Virus record (IMG/VR): IMGVR_UViG_3300044614_001398
Coordinates: 1 to 42,487 of that record
DNA from: a virus
Length of the DNA stretch: 42,487 bases
Direction: 5' to 3' (one strand)
Part shown: one piece after another, positions 2,674 through 10,114 of the stretch
Layout of the letters: every line of letters starts with the position of its first letter
How positions within the stretch are numbered: the first letter of the stretch is position 1
The notes under the pieces: model-generated
The model's input: only the letters and a program-made list of their open reading frames with translations
What the model was told of the DNA's origin: nothing
The model's database searches: none
Position numbers and translations under genes: made by a program

Positions 2674-3660
2674 ATGCCCCAAATCACCGGCACCACCGAC
2701 ACCTACGACCTCGTCGGCATCGCGGAGGACGTCGAGGACGTGATCTTCATGATCTCGCCCACCGAGACGCCGATGCTGACGATGGCCGGCCGCAAGAAGG
2801 CCGACAACACGCTGCACCAGTGGCAGACCGACTCGCTCGCGGCGCCCGCGGCGAACCGCCAGATCGAGGGCGACGACGCGGCGTTCGCGACCGCGACGCC
2901 GACCACGATGCTGTCCAACTACAACCAGATCAGCCGCAAGACGTTGGTCATCTCGCGTACCGCCGAGCGCGTGCGCAAGTACGGGCGGGACAGCGAGAAG
3001 GCCCGCCTGATGGTGAAGTACGGCAAGGAGCTGAAGCGCGACATCGAGCTGGCGCTCGTGACGAACCAAGCTTCCTCGGCCGGCGGCTCGGCGACGGCTC
3101 GTTCGTCGGCCGGCATCGAGTCGATGATCGCGGCCAACCGCATCCTGCCGACCACGTCGAACACCGGCACCACGCCGGGCTACGCCGCGGGTCTGTGGTC
3201 GGCTCCGACCGACGGCACCGCGACCGGCGCGGGTGCGACCCTCACCGAGGACTACCTCAAGTCCGCGCTGGAGGCGTCGTGGGTCGACGGTGGCGACGCG
3301 TCGCTGATCCTGACCAACACGTACCAGAAGAAGCAGATCGCGACCTTCTCGGGCGCGACCAAGTTCGCGGGCAACTACGTGGAAGGCGGGCGGCGTCAGC
3401 AGGGCGTGCTGGTGGCCGGTGTCGACATGTACATCTCCGACGTGGGCGAGCACCGCATCAAGCTCAACCGCTACATGCGGCAGCGCACGCTGCTCGCGCT
3501 GGACCCGGAGTACATCGACGTGGCGTGGATCGACGCGATGAAGGAGGTGCCGCTCGCGAAGACGGGTGACGCCGAGAAGTCCATGCTGATCTGCGAGTTC
3601 TGCCTCGTGGTCGGCAACCCGGACGCTCACGCGAAGATCCAAGACCTCTTCTCGGTGTAA
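2674..3660 (+). CDS. Major capsid protein, SU10 / DUF5309 family
   Basis: 328 residues with the usual length and opening of the SU10 capsid family: GTTDTYDLVGIAEDVEDVIF, then SPTETPMLTMAGRKKA, then HQWQTDSLAAPAANRQIEGDDA. The family has the HK97 fold and builds the icosahedral shell. A very strong ribosome site (GGAGGTAA, five bases before ATG) fits high expression. A terminator lies 39 bases after the stop. Scaffold is immediately upstream. No cleavage site or insertion domain stands out. Family assignment is from remembered N-terminal sequence conservation. Confidence 0.93.
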   Translation: MPQITGTTDTYDLVGIAEDVEDVIFMISPTETPMLTMAGRKKADNTLHQWQTDSLAAPAANRQIEGDDAAFATATPTTMLSNYNQISRKTLVISRTAERVRKYGRDSEKARLMVKYGKELKRDIELALVTNQASSAGGSATARSSAGIESMIAANRILPTTSNTGTTPGYAAGLWSAPTDGTATGAGATLTEDYLKSALEASWVDGGDASLILTNTYQKKQIATFSGATKFAGNYVEGGRRQQGVLVAGVDMYISDVGEHRIKLNRYMRQRTLLALDPEYIDVAWIDAMKEVPLAKTGDAEKSMLICEFCLVVGNPDAHAKIQDLFSV

Positions 3661-3748: not shown

Positions 3749-4024
3749 ATGGCGAAGAAAAAATCGTCACCCGAAGCGACGGTCAACGCCGACGCTACCC
3801 CGACCGCCGACGCGCTCGCCGCGTCCATCGCGCGCACCGAACCGGGCACAACACCCGAGCTGAAATCCGACGCGCTCGCGTCCGACCCCGCGCTCGATGG
3901 CGAGAACGCCGTCAGCTTCGCGCTCGCGACGCTGGTGCGTGTGCTGGGCGACTCCAACCACCGCATCATCCGCCGCAAGATCAAGGTGGGTGGGGCTTGG
4001 TACAACGTCGAGGTGTCGCGGTGA
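3749..4024 (+). CDS. Small phage protein after capsid gene
   Basis: 91 residues. I chose ATG 3749, which follows AGGAG with good spacing; an upstream in-frame GTG would lie inside the terminator stem. The N-terminus is Lys-rich (MAKKKSS), followed by an Ala/Thr/Pro-rich disordered stretch. Residues 50-91 look folded and end RRKIKVGGAWYNVEVSR. No family recognised. Its stop overlaps the next GTG. Position suggests a head-completion or accessory role, unproven. Confidence 0.6.
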   Translation: MAKKKSSPEATVNADATPTADALAASIARTEPGTTPELKSDALASDPALDGENAVSFALATLVRVLGDSNHRIIRRKIKVGGAWYNVEVSR

Positions 4025-4356
4025 GCCGCCTCGTCGAGATGATCGACCGCGACCCGGTCACCGGGTTGGAAACGTGGATCGAGTGCGACGAGTCGGCCAA
4101 GAAGTTCCACATCCACCACCGACAAGACGTATCGCAGGCGCTGGAGGACAACAAGCGCCTGCAGATCGTGGACGACTACAAGAAACAGGGCATCAAGCGC
4201 TCGTGGATGCACTACGCGCACATCCCCGACGTGGTCGTCATCGCGTGGATGAAGGAAGGCATCGACGTCTTCAACCCGGACCACCTCCCTGCGGTCAAGC
4301 GCAAGCTGCGCGACCCGGAGTACCGGCATCTCAGGACGACGCTCGGTGCAATCTGA
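4021..4356 (+). CDS. Conserved phage head-module protein of unknown function
   Basis: 111 residues from GTG 4021, which overlaps the previous TGA. The C-terminal half (WMHYAHIPDVVVIAWMKEGIDVF, then VKRKLRDPEYRHLRTT) matches a conserved pattern I know from many podovirus proteins placed after the capsid gene: 'hyArIPnvV...W...GiD.f.....p.v.r.L.dPEY..Lrt'. Its biochemical role is not established. It overlaps the glycosyltransferase start by 11 bases, so translation is likely coupled. Confidence 0.7.
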   Translation: MSRLVEMIDRDPVTGLETWIECDESAKKFHIHHRQDVSQALEDNKRLQIVDDYKKQGIKRSWMHYAHIPDVVVIAWMKEGIDVFNPDHLPAVKRKLRDPEYRHLRTTLGAI

Positions 4357-5740
4357 TCTCGTCCGCGAGGCGATCCGCTGCGCGAAGGCCGGTCGCGAAG
4401 AAGAGGCATTCGCGCTCGTCCAGCGCCGGCTGCGCGAAGAGCGTGACGACATCGACGCGCTCGACATGCTCGGCACGCTACACGCGAAGGCCGAGCACTA
4501 CACGCCCGCGTGGCTGATCTACCGACGCATGCACGAGCTGGCGCCGAAGCGTGACGACGTGATGTCGAACATCGGCATGTCGCTCGATGGTCTGGAGCGC
4601 ACGGGCGAGGCGCGCGACTGGTTCACGCGCGCGATGCGCGCGAACCCCGCGAAGGCCGCCTATCCGGCGAACATCGCGATGACCTACCTGCGCGAGTCGA
4701 ACCCGCGCAAGACGATCGAGTGGGCCGACGTGGCGCTGCGCATCGAGCCCGAGAACCGCGCTGCGCGCACGGCGCACGGCTTCGCGAGCCTCGCGATCGG
4801 AGACTGGGAGCGCGGCTGGGACGGCTACGAGGCCGCGCTCGGCACCGCGCACCGCGCGCACAAGGACTTCGGCCTGCAGGAGTGGCGCGGCGAGACGGAT
4901 GGTGAGCTGGTCGTCTACGGCGAACAGGGCATTGGCGACGAGGTCATGTTCGCCTCGATGCTCGGCGAGTTGCGCGACCGGATGCGTCCGCACACCGTGA
5001 CGGTCGAGTGCGACGCGCGCCTCGCGCGGCTCTTCGCGCGCTCGTTCCCCGGCGTGAACGTCGTCGGCACGCGGCGCGCCGAGCCCACGTGGCTGCAGCC
5101 GTCGATGAAGTACCAAGCCCCCGTGGGCCGGCTGGGCACGTACCTGCGGCCGACACCGCTCGCGTGCCCCGGCACGCCGTACCTCGTGCCCGACCCCGAG
5201 CTGAAGGTCATGTACCGGGCGCTGATCGAGTCGTACGCGCGTGGTCGCCGGGCGGTCGGCATCACGTGGTCGGGCGGGCTCCAGAACACGGGCGCCTCGC
5301 GGCGCTCGCCGGGGCTCGCCACGCTCGCGCCGATCATCCGCGCGAACCCGGACGTCGCGTGGTTCTCGCTGGAGTACAAGCCCGAGACGGCGCGCGAGAT
5401 CGAGGATCTCGACCTGCCCGTCAAGCACGTGCACATGGCGGTCGGCAAGGGCGCCAACTACGACCACACCGCGGCGTTCATCTCGTGCCTCGACGGCGTC
5501 ACGGGCGTCGACACCGCGGCGCACCACTGCGCGGGCGCGCTCGGCGTGCCGGTGCTCACGCTCCTGCACCAGCGGCCCCTGTGGCTCTTCGGTGCCTACC
5601 AGAACGAGCACCTCGTCTGGTATCGCAACACCCGCGTCTTCCGGCCGCTCGATGGCGAGCAGTGGCCGCAGCTCGTCGAGAGACTGCTGACGCGGTATCC
5701 CAACATGCTCGCCCGCCTGACCAAAGGAACCGACGAATGA
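4346..5740 (+). CDS. TPR-repeat glycosyltransferase (GT41/GT9-like, GT-B fold)
   Basis: 464 residues from GTG 4346. Residues 1-165 are about four TPR units (for example 35-68, 69-102, 103-136 and 137-165). From residue 179 the sequence matches bacterial TPR-GT proteins: W180-R-G, EQGIGDE (193-199), GITWSGG (305-311), RRSPGL (319-324), and VDTAAHHCAGALG (388-400), where the nucleotide-sugar binding region lies in related enzymes. The likely reaction is transfer of a sugar to a protein or glycan acceptor, with the TPR part binding the acceptor. It overlaps its upstream neighbour and shares ATGA with the next glycosyltransferase. Donor and acceptor are unknown; virion-protein glycosylation is my inference from position. 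Confidence 0.8.
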   Translation: MQSDLVREAIRCAKAGREEEAFALVQRRLREERDDIDALDMLGTLHAKAEHYTPAWLIYRRMHELAPKRDDVMSNIGMSLDGLERTGEARDWFTRAMRANPAKAAYPANIAMTYLRESNPRKTIEWADVALRIEPENRAARTAHGFASLAIGDWERGWDGYEAALGTAHRAHKDFGLQEWRGETDGELVVYGEQGIGDEVMFASMLGELRDRMRPHTVTVECDARLARLFARSFPGVNVVGTRRAEPTWLQPSMKYQAPVGRLGTYLRPTPLACPGTPYLVPDPELKVMYRALIESYARGRRAVGITWSGGLQNTGASRRSPGLATLAPIIRANPDVAWFSLEYKPETAREIEDLDLPVKHVHMAVGKGANYDHTAAFISCLDGVTGVDTAAHHCAGALGVPVLTLLHQRPLWLFGAYQNEHLVWYRNTRVFRPLDGEQWPQLVERLLTRYPNMLARLTKGTDE

Positions 5741-6414
5741 TCCGCGTCTTCATCGGGTACGACCCGCGACAGCCGCTGGCGTACAACGTCATGCAGCACT
5801 CGATCGTGCGCAACGCGAGCGTACCTGTCGCCATCACGCCGCTGATCCTCAACCAGCTCCCGATCAAGCGTCGTGGGCTGACGGAGTTCACGTACAGCCG
5901 CTTCCTCGTGCCCGCGCTCTGCGACTTCCAAGGGCTCGCCGTCTTCGCCGACGCCGACATGGTCGTGCGCGGCGACATCCGCGAGCTGATCGACGCGGTC
6001 GGCGAGAACCCCGGCCACTCGGTCTACGTGAACAAGCTGCAGGAGCGTTTCGAGTGGCCGAGCGTCATGGTCTTCGACTGCGGTCGCTGCCGTGACCTGA
6101 CGCCCGCCTACATCGACGACGCGAAGAACGCGCTGTTCGACTTCGCGTGGGCCGAGGACGGCGTCGGTGGCTTCCCGGCCGAATGGAACCACTGCGTGGG
6201 CTACGAGGAGCCGCGTGACGACGCGAAGCTCTTCCACTACACGCAGGGCCTGCCCTGCTTCGTCGAGACGGCCGGCCTGCCCGAGGACGCCTACTGGCAC
6301 GACGAGCTGAAGCGCATGAAGCACACCGTGTCGTGGCGCGAGCTGATGGGCAGCTCGATCCACGCCAAGCACGTGCTCAAGCGCTTCCTCTCCCGCTACG
6401 CGACGGGGGCGTGA
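5737..6414 (+). CDS. GT8-like glycosyltransferase (GT-A fold)
   Basis: 225 residues, ATG overlapping the previous stop. The N-terminus MIRVFIGYDPRQPLAYNVMQ is typical of GT8-like enzymes. D72-A73-D74 in VFADADMVV is a DxD metal/nucleotide-sugar motif. Later motifs are FDCGR (about 112-116), EWNHCVGYEEP (about 149-159) and AKLFHYTQGLPCF (about 165-177), where a His often binds the metal. It should transfer a hexose-type sugar with retention of configuration. It is the second of three coupled modification genes. Donor and acceptor cannot be read from sequence. Confidence 0.8.
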   Translation: MIRVFIGYDPRQPLAYNVMQHSIVRNASVPVAITPLILNQLPIKRRGLTEFTYSRFLVPALCDFQGLAVFADADMVVRGDIRELIDAVGENPGHSVYVNKLQERFEWPSVMVFDCGRCRDLTPAYIDDAKNALFDFAWAEDGVGGFPAEWNHCVGYEEPRDDAKLFHYTQGLPCFVETAGLPEDAYWHDELKRMKHTVSWRELMGSSIHAKHVLKRFLSRYATGA

Positions 6415-6415
6415 G

Positions 6416-6961
6416 ATGACCGCATCCCCGAGCTGTGAGCTGATCAGCCCCGAGTACCGGCGCGAGCAGCGGCTGCTGCACGAGACGCGCAACGACTACG
6501 GAGTCGCCAGCCTGCAGTACGCGCCGGTCGTCTCCGCGCTCGTCGCGCGGCTGGAGATCGACACGGTTCTCGACTACGGCTGCGGCAAGGGCCGGCTCGT
6601 CGAGGGTGTCGCGAAGCTGCCGCACGACCGGAGCTTCACGATCGAGCTGTACGACCCCGCGGTGCCCGAGTACGCGGACCCGCCCGAGTGCGCGGAGCTG
6701 GTCGTCTGCATCGACGTGCTGGAGCACATCGAGCCCGAGCTGCTGGAAAACGTGCTCGACGACATCAGGCGGCTCGCGCAGCACTACGTGTTCCTCACGA
6801 TCCACACCGGCCCCGCGGCGAAGACGCTGTCGGACGGCAGGAACGCGCACCTGACGCAGGAGGGCCCTGCGTGGTGGATGCCGAAGCTGCTCGCGCGCTG
6901 GGAGCTGATGGAGGCCAAGTCCGTCGGCCCCGGTTTCATCTTCATCGGCAGGAGCACCTGA
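6416..6961 (+). CDS. Class I SAM-dependent methyltransferase
   Basis: 181 residues starting two bases after the previous stop. Motif I is VLDYGCGKGRL (51-61). YDPAVPEYA (79-87) and LVVCIDVLEHIEPELL (95-110) fit motifs II-IV of small-molecule and sugar methyltransferases. The C-terminal block DGRNAHLTQEGPAWWMPKLL is shared, from memory, with phage and bacterial methyltransferases that travel with glycosyltransferases. No DNA-methylase catalytic motif (NPPY or PCQ) is present, so DNA is an unlikely substrate. It probably caps or modifies the sugar added by the two upstream enzymes; this is inference from gene order. Confidence 0.8.
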   Translation: MTASPSCELISPEYRREQRLLHETRNDYGVASLQYAPVVSALVARLEIDTVLDYGCGKGRLVEGVAKLPHDRSFTIELYDPAVPEYADPPECAELVVCIDVLEHIEPELLENVLDDIRRLAQHYVFLTIHTGPAAKTLSDGRNAHLTQEGPAWWMPKLLARWELMEAKSVGPGFIFIGRST

Positions 6962-6962
6962 C

Positions 6963-7571
6963 GTGGCGATCACCAACTACGGCACGCTGAAGACCACGAT
7001 CGCGTCGCGCATCAACCAGTCGGGGCACGACACGGCCATCGAGGATGCTGTCGCCGCGGCGACGTCGCGTCTGAGCCGAGAGCTGCGTGTCGTCGATCAG
7101 GAGGGCCGCGCGAGCGCCGACCTGACTGCCGAGTACTCCGACCTGCCCGCAGATTTCAACGGCATGCGCAGCCTGCGCACGGCCGACGGTAAGCGGCTGG
7201 AGTACTTCGTGCCCGAGGCTTTCCAGACGATGGTCGAGCGCTTCGCCTACCTCGCGAAGCCGGTCTTCACGATCGAGTACGAGCAGCTTCGCGTGCACCC
7301 CGCGCCGAGCCCCGAGAGCGTGCTGTCGGTGGTCATGCTCTACCACGCGCGCGTCACCGACCTGACGGCAGACACGGACGCCAACTGGGTGATCACCGAT
7401 CACCCCGACCTGTACCTTGCCGCGTCAATGGTCGAGATCCTGCTGCACCTCAAGGACCGCGAAGCCGCTGGCATCTGGGAGGACCGTACCAAGCAGCTCA
7501 TCGAGCAGGTCATCGTGGCTTCCCGGCGACGGCGCTACACGAGCGGACAGCTCGCTATCCGCAACGTCTGA
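6963..7571 (+). CDS. Head-to-tail adaptor protein (SU10/P22 gp4-like)
   Basis: 202 residues from GTG 6963. The pattern is YGTLKTTIASRINQSGHDTAIEDAVAAATSRLSRELR, then LPADFNGMRSLR, then a mixed beta region, then HPDLYLAASMVEILLHLKD and a basic helical end. It matches the adaptor family attached below the portal in SU10-type and related podoviruses. It would connect the portal ring to the tail nozzle. It sits at the start of the tail module, right after the modification genes. The family-level call is good; the exact ring position is inferred. Confidence 0.75.
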   Translation: MAITNYGTLKTTIASRINQSGHDTAIEDAVAAATSRLSRELRVVDQEGRASADLTAEYSDLPADFNGMRSLRTADGKRLEYFVPEAFQTMVERFAYLAKPVFTIEYEQLRVHPAPSPESVLSVVMLYHARVTDLTADTDANWVITDHPDLYLAASMVEILLHLKDREAAGIWEDRTKQLIEQVIVASRRRRYTSGQLAIRNV

Positions 7572-7584
7572 CTAAGGATTCGAC

Positions 7585-8553
7585 ATGGCATACGAAACTC
7601 CTGTTGTCCGGTTGCTCGGCACGACGGGCGTGATCGGCGAGGACGGTACGTTCACGATCAGCAACACGGTCGATGCGGTAGTGGCCGGCGAGCTGCTGGT
7701 GCTTGTCGCTGGGCTCACCGATTCCGCGACGTCGCTCGCGGTGACTCTGACCGGCGTGACGGACAACGACTCCAACACGTGGCAGACGCCCGAGAACGCG
7801 ATGGCGCTCACCGACTACGTGCCCAACGCCGCGCTCGCCTTCGCGTACAACGCGAACGCGCAAGCACAGAGCGCGCTCACCGTCACCGGCACGCTCGGCA
7901 ACAGCGCGAACAACAAGGTGTCCGCGGCACTGCTCGCAGTCTCGGGCGTGCTCTCGGCGAGCAACCCGATCGACCTGCCGATTCTGGAGGGTGTTGGCAC
8001 GGGCGACATCTTCACCGTGACCAACGGCAGCGGTACGCTGGAGCAGGAAGTCTCGGTCGCGATCAAGGTTGCTACCGGGTGGTTCGGCATGCCCGACTAC
8101 ACGAGCGGCTGGAACCCTCTGCATCGCGTCCAGAACGGCTCCGGTGTCGGCCTGATCGGTCTGCTGGTCGAGTCGCTGGTGCTCAACAGCAACGCCGCGA
8201 TCACGGGCCGTGCCGATCACCCGCAGGCAAATACCGCGGGCGTCTCGATGCTAGTCGCCGTCTTCAAGGCGAAGTCAACCGGCAACGTGCGCGTGCGCAT
8301 CGCGGCCGACAGCGGCGCGCTGGTGACCGGCGAGAAGCCCTTCGACGTCCGGCTCTGGCGCAATGGTCTGCCCGAGCAGACGCAGGCCGTGCTCGTGGAG
8401 GTTGCCGACGTCAGCTCGGCCGGCGTCATCCTCATCAACGCGTCCAGCCTGCCAGCGTTCACCGGGCTGGCCACCAGCGACGTCATGTACGCGTGGGTTC
8501 AGGGGCTGACGAGGGACACGTCGGTCATCCCGTGCACGGTGGAGACGTACTGA
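7585..8553 (+). CDS. Beta-rich virion protein of unknown function
   Basis: 322 residues rich in Thr, Val, Ala, Gly and Ser, without Cys, as in phage tail or head decoration proteins. It begins MAYETPVVRLLGTTGV and shows repeated strand-like segments such as LAVTLTGVTDNDSNTW and ALTVTGTLGNSANNKVSAALLAVSG. No catalytic motif is visible. The ribosome site lies in a 20-base leader that also precedes the ejection-protein gene at 13715. Its place between adaptor and tail genes supports a structural role, perhaps a fibre or decoration protein. Confidence 0.6.
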   Translation: MAYETPVVRLLGTTGVIGEDGTFTISNTVDAVVAGELLVLVAGLTDSATSLAVTLTGVTDNDSNTWQTPENAMALTDYVPNAALAFAYNANAQAQSALTVTGTLGNSANNKVSAALLAVSGVLSASNPIDLPILEGVGTGDIFTVTNGSGTLEQEVSVAIKVATGWFGMPDYTSGWNPLHRVQNGSGVGLIGLLVESLVLNSNAAITGRADHPQANTAGVSMLVAVFKAKSTGNVRVRIAADSGALVTGEKPFDVRLWRNGLPEQTQAVLVEVADVSSAGVILINASSLPAFTGLATSDVMYAWVQGLTRDTSVIPCTVETY

Positions 8554-8554
8554 C

Positions 8555-9559
8555 ATGGCGTACATCGACACGATCATCGAGGACATGGCGCTGTTCCACG
8601 ACAACCCGTGCGCGGTGCTGGAGGTGCTCGCGGGCTGGGGCTCTGGTGCCGCGCCCCCGGAGTCCGCGCCGAATCCGTCGGGCTGGACGCACCACATCGC
8701 ATGGACGCACATCGTCCGTGAGGCGCGCACCGGCTTCCTGCAAGCGCAGGACACCAACCGACCGTGGCGGCTGCCCATCAGCGGGCTGGGCAACACCGCG
8801 ACCAACGCGCGCGTCCAGCAGGCCTACATCCAGATGTGGTGGCTGATGACCGACGGCTCGTGGCGGCTCACCTCGTACAACGAGAAGCCGGGGGCCATCG
8901 CGTACCCGTACAACTGGAGCGAGTACGAATTCATCGACGCCTTCCAGTTCTGGCGCAACGAGACGATCGGCACCTCGATGGCCGACATCGGCGCGACCAA
9001 CTTCGACCGGCTCTGGCACGCCTTCGGCGCGGCGCTGCCGAATCCGGTGGGCGCGATCGGCTGTGTGGCGGTGTGCTTCATGCGCAAGATCCTCGACGAT
9101 GCCGGCGGCACCGACGACCGCGCGAACGCGCGCATCCTCGGCGGCCTCGCAGGCGACTGGTACAGGTCCGCAGACACGGCGAACGGCAGCGACGGCGTCA
9201 AGATCCAAGGCGTCAACGTCAACTACATGGGCTTCTCTCGGCTCAAGTACGTGACGAACAACTGGCAACTCTTCGGCTGGTATCAGACGGACCGGCTCAC
9301 GCAGTCGCAGCTTCGCGCCAACCCGCCGCCGATCATCGGGCTCGACCTGATCGGCGGCGGCACCAATCCCGGACCGACGGACCCACCCCCGCCGCTCGTG
9401 CCGGTGTTCAGCAAGCCGATCAAGGTGCCCAACGGCACGGCGCCGTTCTTCGCGCGCACGACCAGCGGCGCCAACACCTTCACCGCGCGTGCCGGCACGA
9501 CCGTCACGCCGGGCACGGCAGGCCGGCCTCGTCGGCCGCGGATCATGTTCGACTACTGA
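8555..9559 (+). CDS. Trp-rich putative tail-associated protein
   Basis: 334 residues, unusually rich in Trp and Tyr (GWTHHIAWTHIV, MWWLMTDGSWRL, PYNWSEYEF, FGWYQTD), which suggests a carbohydrate-binding surface. Residues 1-250 look like one alpha/beta domain. A Pro/Gly linker follows (GGGTNPGPTDPPPPLVPVF), then a short beta-strand tail ending in basic residues. No hydrolase active-site pattern is convincing. Only two Cys occur in the middle of the protein (VAVCF, with IGC close by). A receptor-contact or baseplate-like role is a guess from composition and position. Confidence 0.55.
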   Translation: MAYIDTIIEDMALFHDNPCAVLEVLAGWGSGAAPPESAPNPSGWTHHIAWTHIVREARTGFLQAQDTNRPWRLPISGLGNTATNARVQQAYIQMWWLMTDGSWRLTSYNEKPGAIAYPYNWSEYEFIDAFQFWRNETIGTSMADIGATNFDRLWHAFGAALPNPVGAIGCVAVCFMRKILDDAGGTDDRANARILGGLAGDWYRSADTANGSDGVKIQGVNVNYMGFSRLKYVTNNWQLFGWYQTDRLTQSQLRANPPPIIGLDLIGGGTNPGPTDPPPPLVPVFSKPIKVPNGTAPFFARTTSGANTFTARAGTTVTPGTAGRPRRPRIMFDY

Positions 9560-9568
9560 GGCGGCATC

Positions 9569-10114
9569 ATGTTCAAGATCAAGCAGAACGAAGCGACCGC
9601 GGCCTACCGCACGATCTACTTTCTCGCCACCAACACCGCGGACAACAGCGGCCACACGAGCAACCTGCTCGCGTCCGAGCTGAAGCTGTCGAAGGCCGGG
9701 GGCAGTGAAGCGAACGCCAGCAACGGCTCGACGCATATCGCGAACGGCCTGCACAAGTTCGTCCTGACGCCGACCGAGGTGGACACGTTCGGGTTCCTGT
9801 CGATCCGCATCGCCAAGACCGGCGTCTACGGCGACGTGACTGTGGCGCAGGTCGTCGCCTTCGACGCGTACGACGGAGCGGACCTCGGCATCAGCGGGCT
9901 CGACCCGAGCGCGATGCTGACCACACCCAACGGCGTATTCGTCGGCAAGAGCATGCAGCGCGCGATGCAGTCGATGTACGCGGTGCTGTGCGGCAAGTCG
10001 GCGGGGCGCGGCAGCGCCACCGAGCGCTTCTACAACCCGGCCGACGAGAACGACGAAGTCATCGCGTTCACGTTCCAGACCGACGGCGACCGCAACACCC
10101 CGACGGAGTCCTGA
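9569..10114 (+). CDS. Tail/receptor-binding adaptor protein, BppU-like N-terminus
   Basis: 181 residues. The N-terminal 95 residues follow the pattern of phage proteins that anchor receptor-binding parts: TAAYRTIYFLATNTADNSGHT, LKLSKAGGSEANASN, GLHKFVLTPTEVDTFGFLSIRIAKTG, VAQVVAFDAYDG. A short helical segment (MQRAMQSMYAVLCGK) precedes a C-terminal element, TERFYNPADENDEVIAFTFQTDGDR, often seen at the end of these proteins. It probably forms part of the tail tip or fibre attachment. Recognition is from pattern memory, not a search. Confidence 0.6.
   Translation: MFKIKQNEATAAYRTIYFLATNTADNSGHTSNLLASELKLSKAGGSEANASNGSTHIANGLHKFVLTPTEVDTFGFLSIRIAKTGVYGDVTVAQVVAFDAYDGADLGISGLDPSAMLTTPNGVFVGKSMQRAMQSMYAVLCGKSAGRGSATERFYNPADENDEVIAFTFQTDGDRNTPTES

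Follow-up and report, generated by a model that had tools for sequence, protein, structure and literature searches.

Mycobacteriophages carry phage-encoded glycosyltransferases and have glycans on capsid and tail-tube subunits (Freeman et al., 2023, as cited in PMC12619734). Beyond mycobacteriophages, we found little experimental support for virion glycosylation. In Caulobacter crescentus, FlmG is one soluble protein in which an N-terminal TPR part binds the acceptor, flagellin, and a C-terminal GT-B part transfers the sugar, pseudaminic acid, to it; the reaction takes place in the cytoplasm (PMC7591256). OGT and SPINDLY (GT41), which are protein O-GlcNAc and O-fucosyl transferases, also have a TPR part followed by a GT-B part. 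GlyE (GT8) and the capsid glycosyltransferase of PBCV-1 have a GT-A fold and are tied to protein-bound glycans by their descriptions.

We analyzed a window of 42,487 bases from an IMG/VR virus record, which contains terminase, portal, scaffold, SU10-type capsid, adaptor and Prim-Pol/AAA replication genes and apparently comes from a podovirus-type phage. The original prediction had placed three enzyme genes, which we call A, B and C, between the capsid side and the head-tail adaptor. We found that this arrangement is real: all three genes are intact, with SU10_MCP upstream and the SU10 adaptor downstream (Table 1), and it is not due to chance, as the same gene order was found again in many divergent contigs.

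Table 1. Genes of the window from the capsid gene to the head-tail adaptor gene.
Feature	Coordinates	Strand	Matches and remarks
SU10-type major capsid protein (MCP)	2674..3660	+	PF17236 (SU10_MCP) 2.2e-87; phrog_1328 1.1e-90
p3749, small orphan ORF downstream of the capsid gene, N-terminus Ala/Thr/Pro-rich	3749..4024	+	
p4021, conserved backbone gene, upstream edge of slot	4021..4356	+	phrog_3982 2.2e-15
A, TPR + GT-B (GT9-like) glycosyltransferase	4346..5740	+	GTG start, intact
B, GT-A, GT8-like glycosyltransferase	5737..6414	+	intact
C, class I SAM methyltransferase	6416..6961	+	intact
SU10-type head-tail adaptor, downstream edge of slot	6963..7571	+	PF24175 9.5e-24; phrog_2941 4.1e-38

The genes had been said to share start/stop overlaps with each other and with an upstream head gene. 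We found overlaps between p4021 and A (11 nt) and between A and B (4 nt, ATGA), whereas B and C, and C and the adaptor gene, are separated by 1-nt spacers; the coupling is still tight. No promoter-like or forward terminator-like match was found within the cassette, and its GC and GC3 are those of the neighboring genes, so it is a fair inference that A, B and C would be co-expressed with the head genes. The presumed head gene, p4021, is conserved at the edge of the slot (it is present in most MCP loci and also in PaP3 and phiM5); however, its phiM5 homologue is without the particle-protein mark that the neighbors of that homologue carry.

The predicted identities (TPR glycosyltransferase, GT8-like glycosyltransferase, class I methyltransferase) hold in Pfam, in profile searches and in AlphaFold models of A and B, which were built from alignments of window and viral-contig proteins only. 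In protein A, TPR matches (Pfam/NCBIfam) are present at the N-terminus and helical repeats are seen in the model (pLDDT 89.6, pTM 0.84). The sole glycosyltransferase match, to Glyco_transf_9, is weak (17.1 bits compared to a Pfam cut-off of 22), and no GT41 family model matched A at E<=0.1. In a fold search with the model of A, the best solved structures were Arabidopsis SPINDLY, Xanthomonas OGT and human OGT (5e-13 down), at just 12-15% identity and TM-scores of 0.3-0.43; given these TM-scores, the overall geometry of A differs from that of SPINDLY and OGT. A keeps conserved GT-B residues, including a D-T-x-x-x-H-x-A-G-A-L-G stretch. The protein-binding TPR part named in the original prediction is found within a TPR glycosyltransferase of OGT/SPINDLY-like fold, and the stated lack of membrane genes agrees with the absence of hydrophobic or membrane segments in A, B and C. 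The predicted N-terminal TPR superhelix and soluble C-terminal GT-B domain of A are those of FlmG- and OGT-like enzymes. The likeness to FlmG is one of architecture rather than of compared sequences, and the TPR part of A is shorter (~150 residues compared to 313 in the FlmG construct); unlike OGT and SPINDLY, A has a glycosyltransferase part that is nearest to GT9 in Pfam. The fold, the FlmG-type precedent and the pilin-adjacent relatives described below point to A being a protein glycosyltransferase.

Protein B matches Glyco_transf_8 (PF01501) at 18.0 bits, under the cut-off of 24.3, and hence we call it GT8-like rather than a GT8 member proper. Its AlphaFold model has a GT-A fold (pLDDT 92.5), and its invariant residues include D72 and D74 of a DxD motif and H167, G171 and P173 of a His-x-x-x-Gly-x-Pro-type C-terminal motif. 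Profile matches were found to GlyE (7.8e-7) and WbbM, and fold matches to WbbM, LgtC, GlyE, UGGT and the PBCV-1 capsid glycosyltransferase; identity to GlyE and the PBCV-1 enzyme is ~11-14% in structural alignment.

Protein C matches Methyltransf_23 (PF13489) at 35.4 bits, over the cut-off of 27, and has the SAM motif of a class I SAM methyltransferase (DYGCGKG), with D53/G55, D100, E103, H104, H145 and W154 conserved. Matches to NanM and to a pseudaminic-acid methylase are weak and below cut-off, and the nearest solved structures by profile are bacterial Hen1 (2e-4). Hen1 methylates a ribose diol and has a metal site, which E103-H104 and H145 of C presumably resemble. Our lead is that C may be a metal-dependent sugar O-methyltransferase.

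To survey the slot independently of the cassette, we scanned viral contigs for the capsid protein; an alignment-based query worked and a single-sequence query gave no matches. This capsid-seeded scan returned 80 contigs, of which 67 reach the adaptor. We grouped the genes from capsid to adaptor by similarity. The slot holds an A-led cassette in 18 of the 67, a single GT2-like glycosyltransferase unrelated to A in 32 and no glycosyltransferase in 17, where a pair of small decoration-like genes lies between the capsid gene and p4021 (12 contigs), other genes are present (3) or p4021 stands alone (2). A glycosyltransferase of one of two unrelated kinds is therefore present between p4021 and the adaptor in 50 of the 67, and this gap is, to judge by its gene content, a recurrent sugar-gene slot. 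The late structural location given in the original prediction is borne out and conserved over a large lineage. A search with B only returned 21 viral contigs, most of them ordered MCP-p4021-A-B-adaptor. In isolate PaP3 the slot is empty, with p4021 followed directly by the adaptor and no glycosyltransferase, and in phiM5 a virion SGNH hydrolase lies ahead of p4021.

We then considered 149 loci with capsid and adaptor genes, a set that was partly seeded with A and B and is not a frequency estimate. A is present in 100 of the 149 and leads the slot in 95 of those 100. A-bearing slots contain at least one methyltransferase in 83/100 cases and a second glycosyltransferase in 84/100, in 40 tail arrangements, with tail-gene classes outside A, B and C assigned by inspection of the sequences and by a few model matches. 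The survey that had been proposed, of whether the trio co-occurs beside SU10-type capsid genes, shows that a variable cassette recurs and that the exact trio is found in only a part of the A-bearing slots (A-B-C, the order in the window, in 10 of the 100 and A-C-B in 9; A-C alone is found in 11).

Several smaller observations concern the slot. The GT2-like glycosyltransferase that occupies it alone belongs to a separate capsid clade (L121-L175, L337), and a relative of this enzyme is encoded directly 3' of the capsid gene in the Microcystis phage Mel-JY34 (L338). The decoration-like gene pair between capsid and p4021 is found in L128, L132, L137, L142, L149, L157, L160, L165, L167, L174, L177 and L178. 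We considered whether decoration-like genes and slot glycosyltransferases are mutually exclusive (120 loci with a glycosyltransferase, 14 with decoration-like genes, never both) and dropped this idea, as the tree leaves about two independent contrasts. Radical-SAM-like genes (L194, L196, L232, L314) and DegT-type aminotransferase-like genes (L226, L314) are also present within the slot, which suggests that unusual sugars are made by the phage.

Loci whose capsid proteins are almost the same can have different tails. In L101 and L111, the capsid proteins are 95% identical and the A proteins 78%, and both loci keep a B elsewhere; in L217 and L227, the values are 93% and 63%. When identity was set against MCP identity, rho was 0.55 for p4021, 0.51 for A, 0.47 for the scaffold and 0.21 for B (descriptive values, as pairs are not independent). 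On these comparisons, A is inherited with the head genes as a core, and the tail (B, C and other transferases) is swapped. That A tracks the capsid while the tail varies is as expected if A recognizes something inherited with the head and the later enzymes vary the glycan. Because the A-bearing capsids form one clade, the conservation reflects mostly one lineage rather than many events. The same position is used alongside other types of capsid. The clearest separate case of the cassette is MW202512, which has A-(HNH)-C-B just ahead of the adaptor and whose capsid protein gives no match to the SU10 capsid profile. In CRP-9, C is flanked by the coat gene and by a gene that weakly matches the adaptor; in S20, several glycosyltransferases and C lie between head genes and head closure; and Mel-JY34 has its glycosyltransferase gene next to the capsid gene, as described above. 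In CcrColossus, B, C and a GT9 gene lie between a tail gene and lysis genes. Distant relatives of B or C in DLP_6, HTVC008M and Mosig are found away from structural genes, which counts against the explanation that we favor, as does the B that L101 and L111 keep elsewhere.

When we scanned bacterial genomes with the A profile, we found chromosomal A homologues in clusters with up to six tandem A genes. In the 26 betaproteobacterial loci, B is present in 12 and C in 7. A type IV pilin start (GFTLIELMIVVAIIGILAA...) was found near the A gene in 22 of the 26 and in one Methylococcus locus, at a distance of 119-2,162 bp (mostly ~300 bp), and genomes with a pilin-adjacent A hold just 0-3 PF00114 pilins. 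No pilin start was found near A in 39 alphaproteobacterial, planctomycete, cyanobacterial and unassigned loci. Flagellin was considered as the chromosomal partner of A; 9 of 19 searched genomes gave no flagellin match and pilin starts adjoin A, so pilin is preferred. The chromosomal clusters share homologues with the cassette (A 27-39%, B 36-44% and, in some clusters, C 30-43%); in contrast to the phage cassette, they have several tandem A copies and adjoin pilin rather than capsid genes. Since chromosomal relatives of A adjoin type IV pilin genes, we read A as protein-directed, and such clusters could account for the source of the phage enzymes. The pilin-adjacent tandem loci, often with GT8-like or methyltransferase genes (L033, L034, L037-L045, L047, L051-L054, L056-L058, L060, L062, L092, L097), are a candidate family for cytoplasmic pilin glycosylation and offer a concrete candidate for such a route; we found no report of TPR glycosyltransferases beside pilin genes in the open-access literature.

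We consider it probable, with real room for doubt, that A, B and C together form a cytoplasmic cassette for protein glycosylation, which is expressed late, acts on a virion protein and caps the glycan with methyl. We infer the acceptor, the order of reactions, the methyl site and the purpose as follows. The TPR superhelix of A would bind a virion (or pre-virion) protein and A would attach the first sugar, B would add a second sugar as an extender, and C would O-methylate the glycan and so end or mask the chain. A would be the conserved core, and the swappable tail (B, C and other transferases) would set the final glycan, which may serve to mask the particle surface or to promote stability or adsorption. 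The original prediction of virion-protein glycosylation with methyl capping is plausible and strengthened by comparative evidence (the slot, the TPR glycosyltransferase fold and the methyltransferase in most cassettes), with the acceptor and the methyl site putative. In the capsid protein, which is a candidate acceptor, a loop (159-198) is Thr/Ser/Gly/Pro-rich, and Thr-Thr 166-167 is conserved mainly in the A-bearing clade. Thr/Ser columns specific to this clade (T73, S134, T166, T167) make up 4 of 9 clade-specific conserved columns compared to 6 of the 75 other columns (Fisher p 0.01); because this is one clade, we keep them as candidate glycosylation sites only.

The position of the cassette fits virion expression and, alone, is also compatible with a host acceptor. 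The likeliest would be a type IV pilin (or flagellin), whose glycosylation late in infection would block superinfection or re-adsorption to debris. In Betaproteobacteria and Methylococcus, major pilin genes do lie beside the chromosomal genes closest to A, B and C, and FlmG, a TPR glycosyltransferase, acts on a surface-filament protein. However, the genes hold a constant position in the head module, variation in A follows that of the capsid, many slots use another glycosyltransferase, and in the tree the A proteins of phages group on a branch of their own, with 74 of 75 bacterial sequences split off; we give a host pilin a small chance. Slot position and co-inheritance of A with the capsid favor the virion of the phage itself as the acceptor. 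The one bacterial exception in the tree (L035, 7836-9182) is a phage-type TPR glycosyltransferase on an Aquincola contig, among integrase-like and primase-like genes and without an SU10 capsid gene; this contig is possibly a mobile element or satellite.

Host lipopolysaccharide or O-antigen, as in serotype conversion, is a quite improbable target: although some LPS enzymes (heptosyltransferase, LgtC, WbbM) belong to the GT9 and GT8 families, the cassette is without the membrane or flippase gene of a gtr cassette and A-C without a hydrophobic segment, the N-terminal TPR domain is conserved, and the nearest bacterial relatives adjoin pilin genes. More improbable still is a role in DNA hypermodification, in which the enzymes would add methylated sugars to the bases of the phage genome, as glycosyltransferases of other phages do (work cited in PMC12619734). 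The original prediction disfavored this role. Among the proteins of the window that were scanned, we found none for base hydroxylation, none like thymidylate synthase and no kinase; the genes lie in the late head module, and the TPR domain of A is predicted to bind protein. There is a small but appreciable chance that A, B and C are separate cargo genes at a permissive site, with C methylating something unrelated such as RNA ends, on which Hen1 acts. The profile of C is nearest to bacterial Hen1, the tails vary widely, and HNH genes enter the region too. Yet the cargo is nearly all sugar-active by appearance (glycosyltransferases, FkbM and other methyltransferases, DegT, an acyltransferase), and B occurs together with C in CcrColossus-type phages, DLP_6 and bacterial clusters as well. 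With virion glycosylation as the preferred reading, we tentatively suggest, as an origin that we would not count as established, that a cytoplasmic A-like TPR glycosyltransferase module, kin to those beside pilin genes, was recruited once into the head module of a large phage lineage. There it would have become the core initiator, followed by an exchangeable tail of transferases and methyltransferases, and phage particles would have gained methyl-capped surface glycans that can be switched rapidly.

As in the mycobacteriophages, the glycosyltransferases here are encoded by the phage, and their genes are linked to virion genes; the cassette is set apart by its proposed TPR glycosyltransferase initiator and its usual methyltransferase. 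The system had been called little described. This does not hold for phage virion glycosylation as such, which is published for mycobacteriophages; it does hold for this cassette and slot, of which we found no description in the open-access literature. What appears to be new is the type of initiator, the methyltransferase habit and a well-defined slot for enzyme swapping across a large lineage of uncultured phages. If the reading is right, tail swapping lets phages change the sugar coat of the particle. Because the slot is fixed across a large lineage of environmental phages, one can test which particle protein is glycosylated, what the glycan does and why phages with nearly the same capsid swap enzymes.

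Two further features of the window were observed. Between the adaptor and the next head gene (7585-10114) there are three unassigned genes that are missing at that place in most relatives; L236, L237 and L239 have genes resembling this set close to their cassettes. The products of the three window genes are possible surface proteins and possible acceptors. Upstream of the scaffold gene (239-1183), there is a protein with repeated (L/S)PP/SLL..DGDTLYAPTV units and a weak match to phrog_8501, a minor tail protein family.
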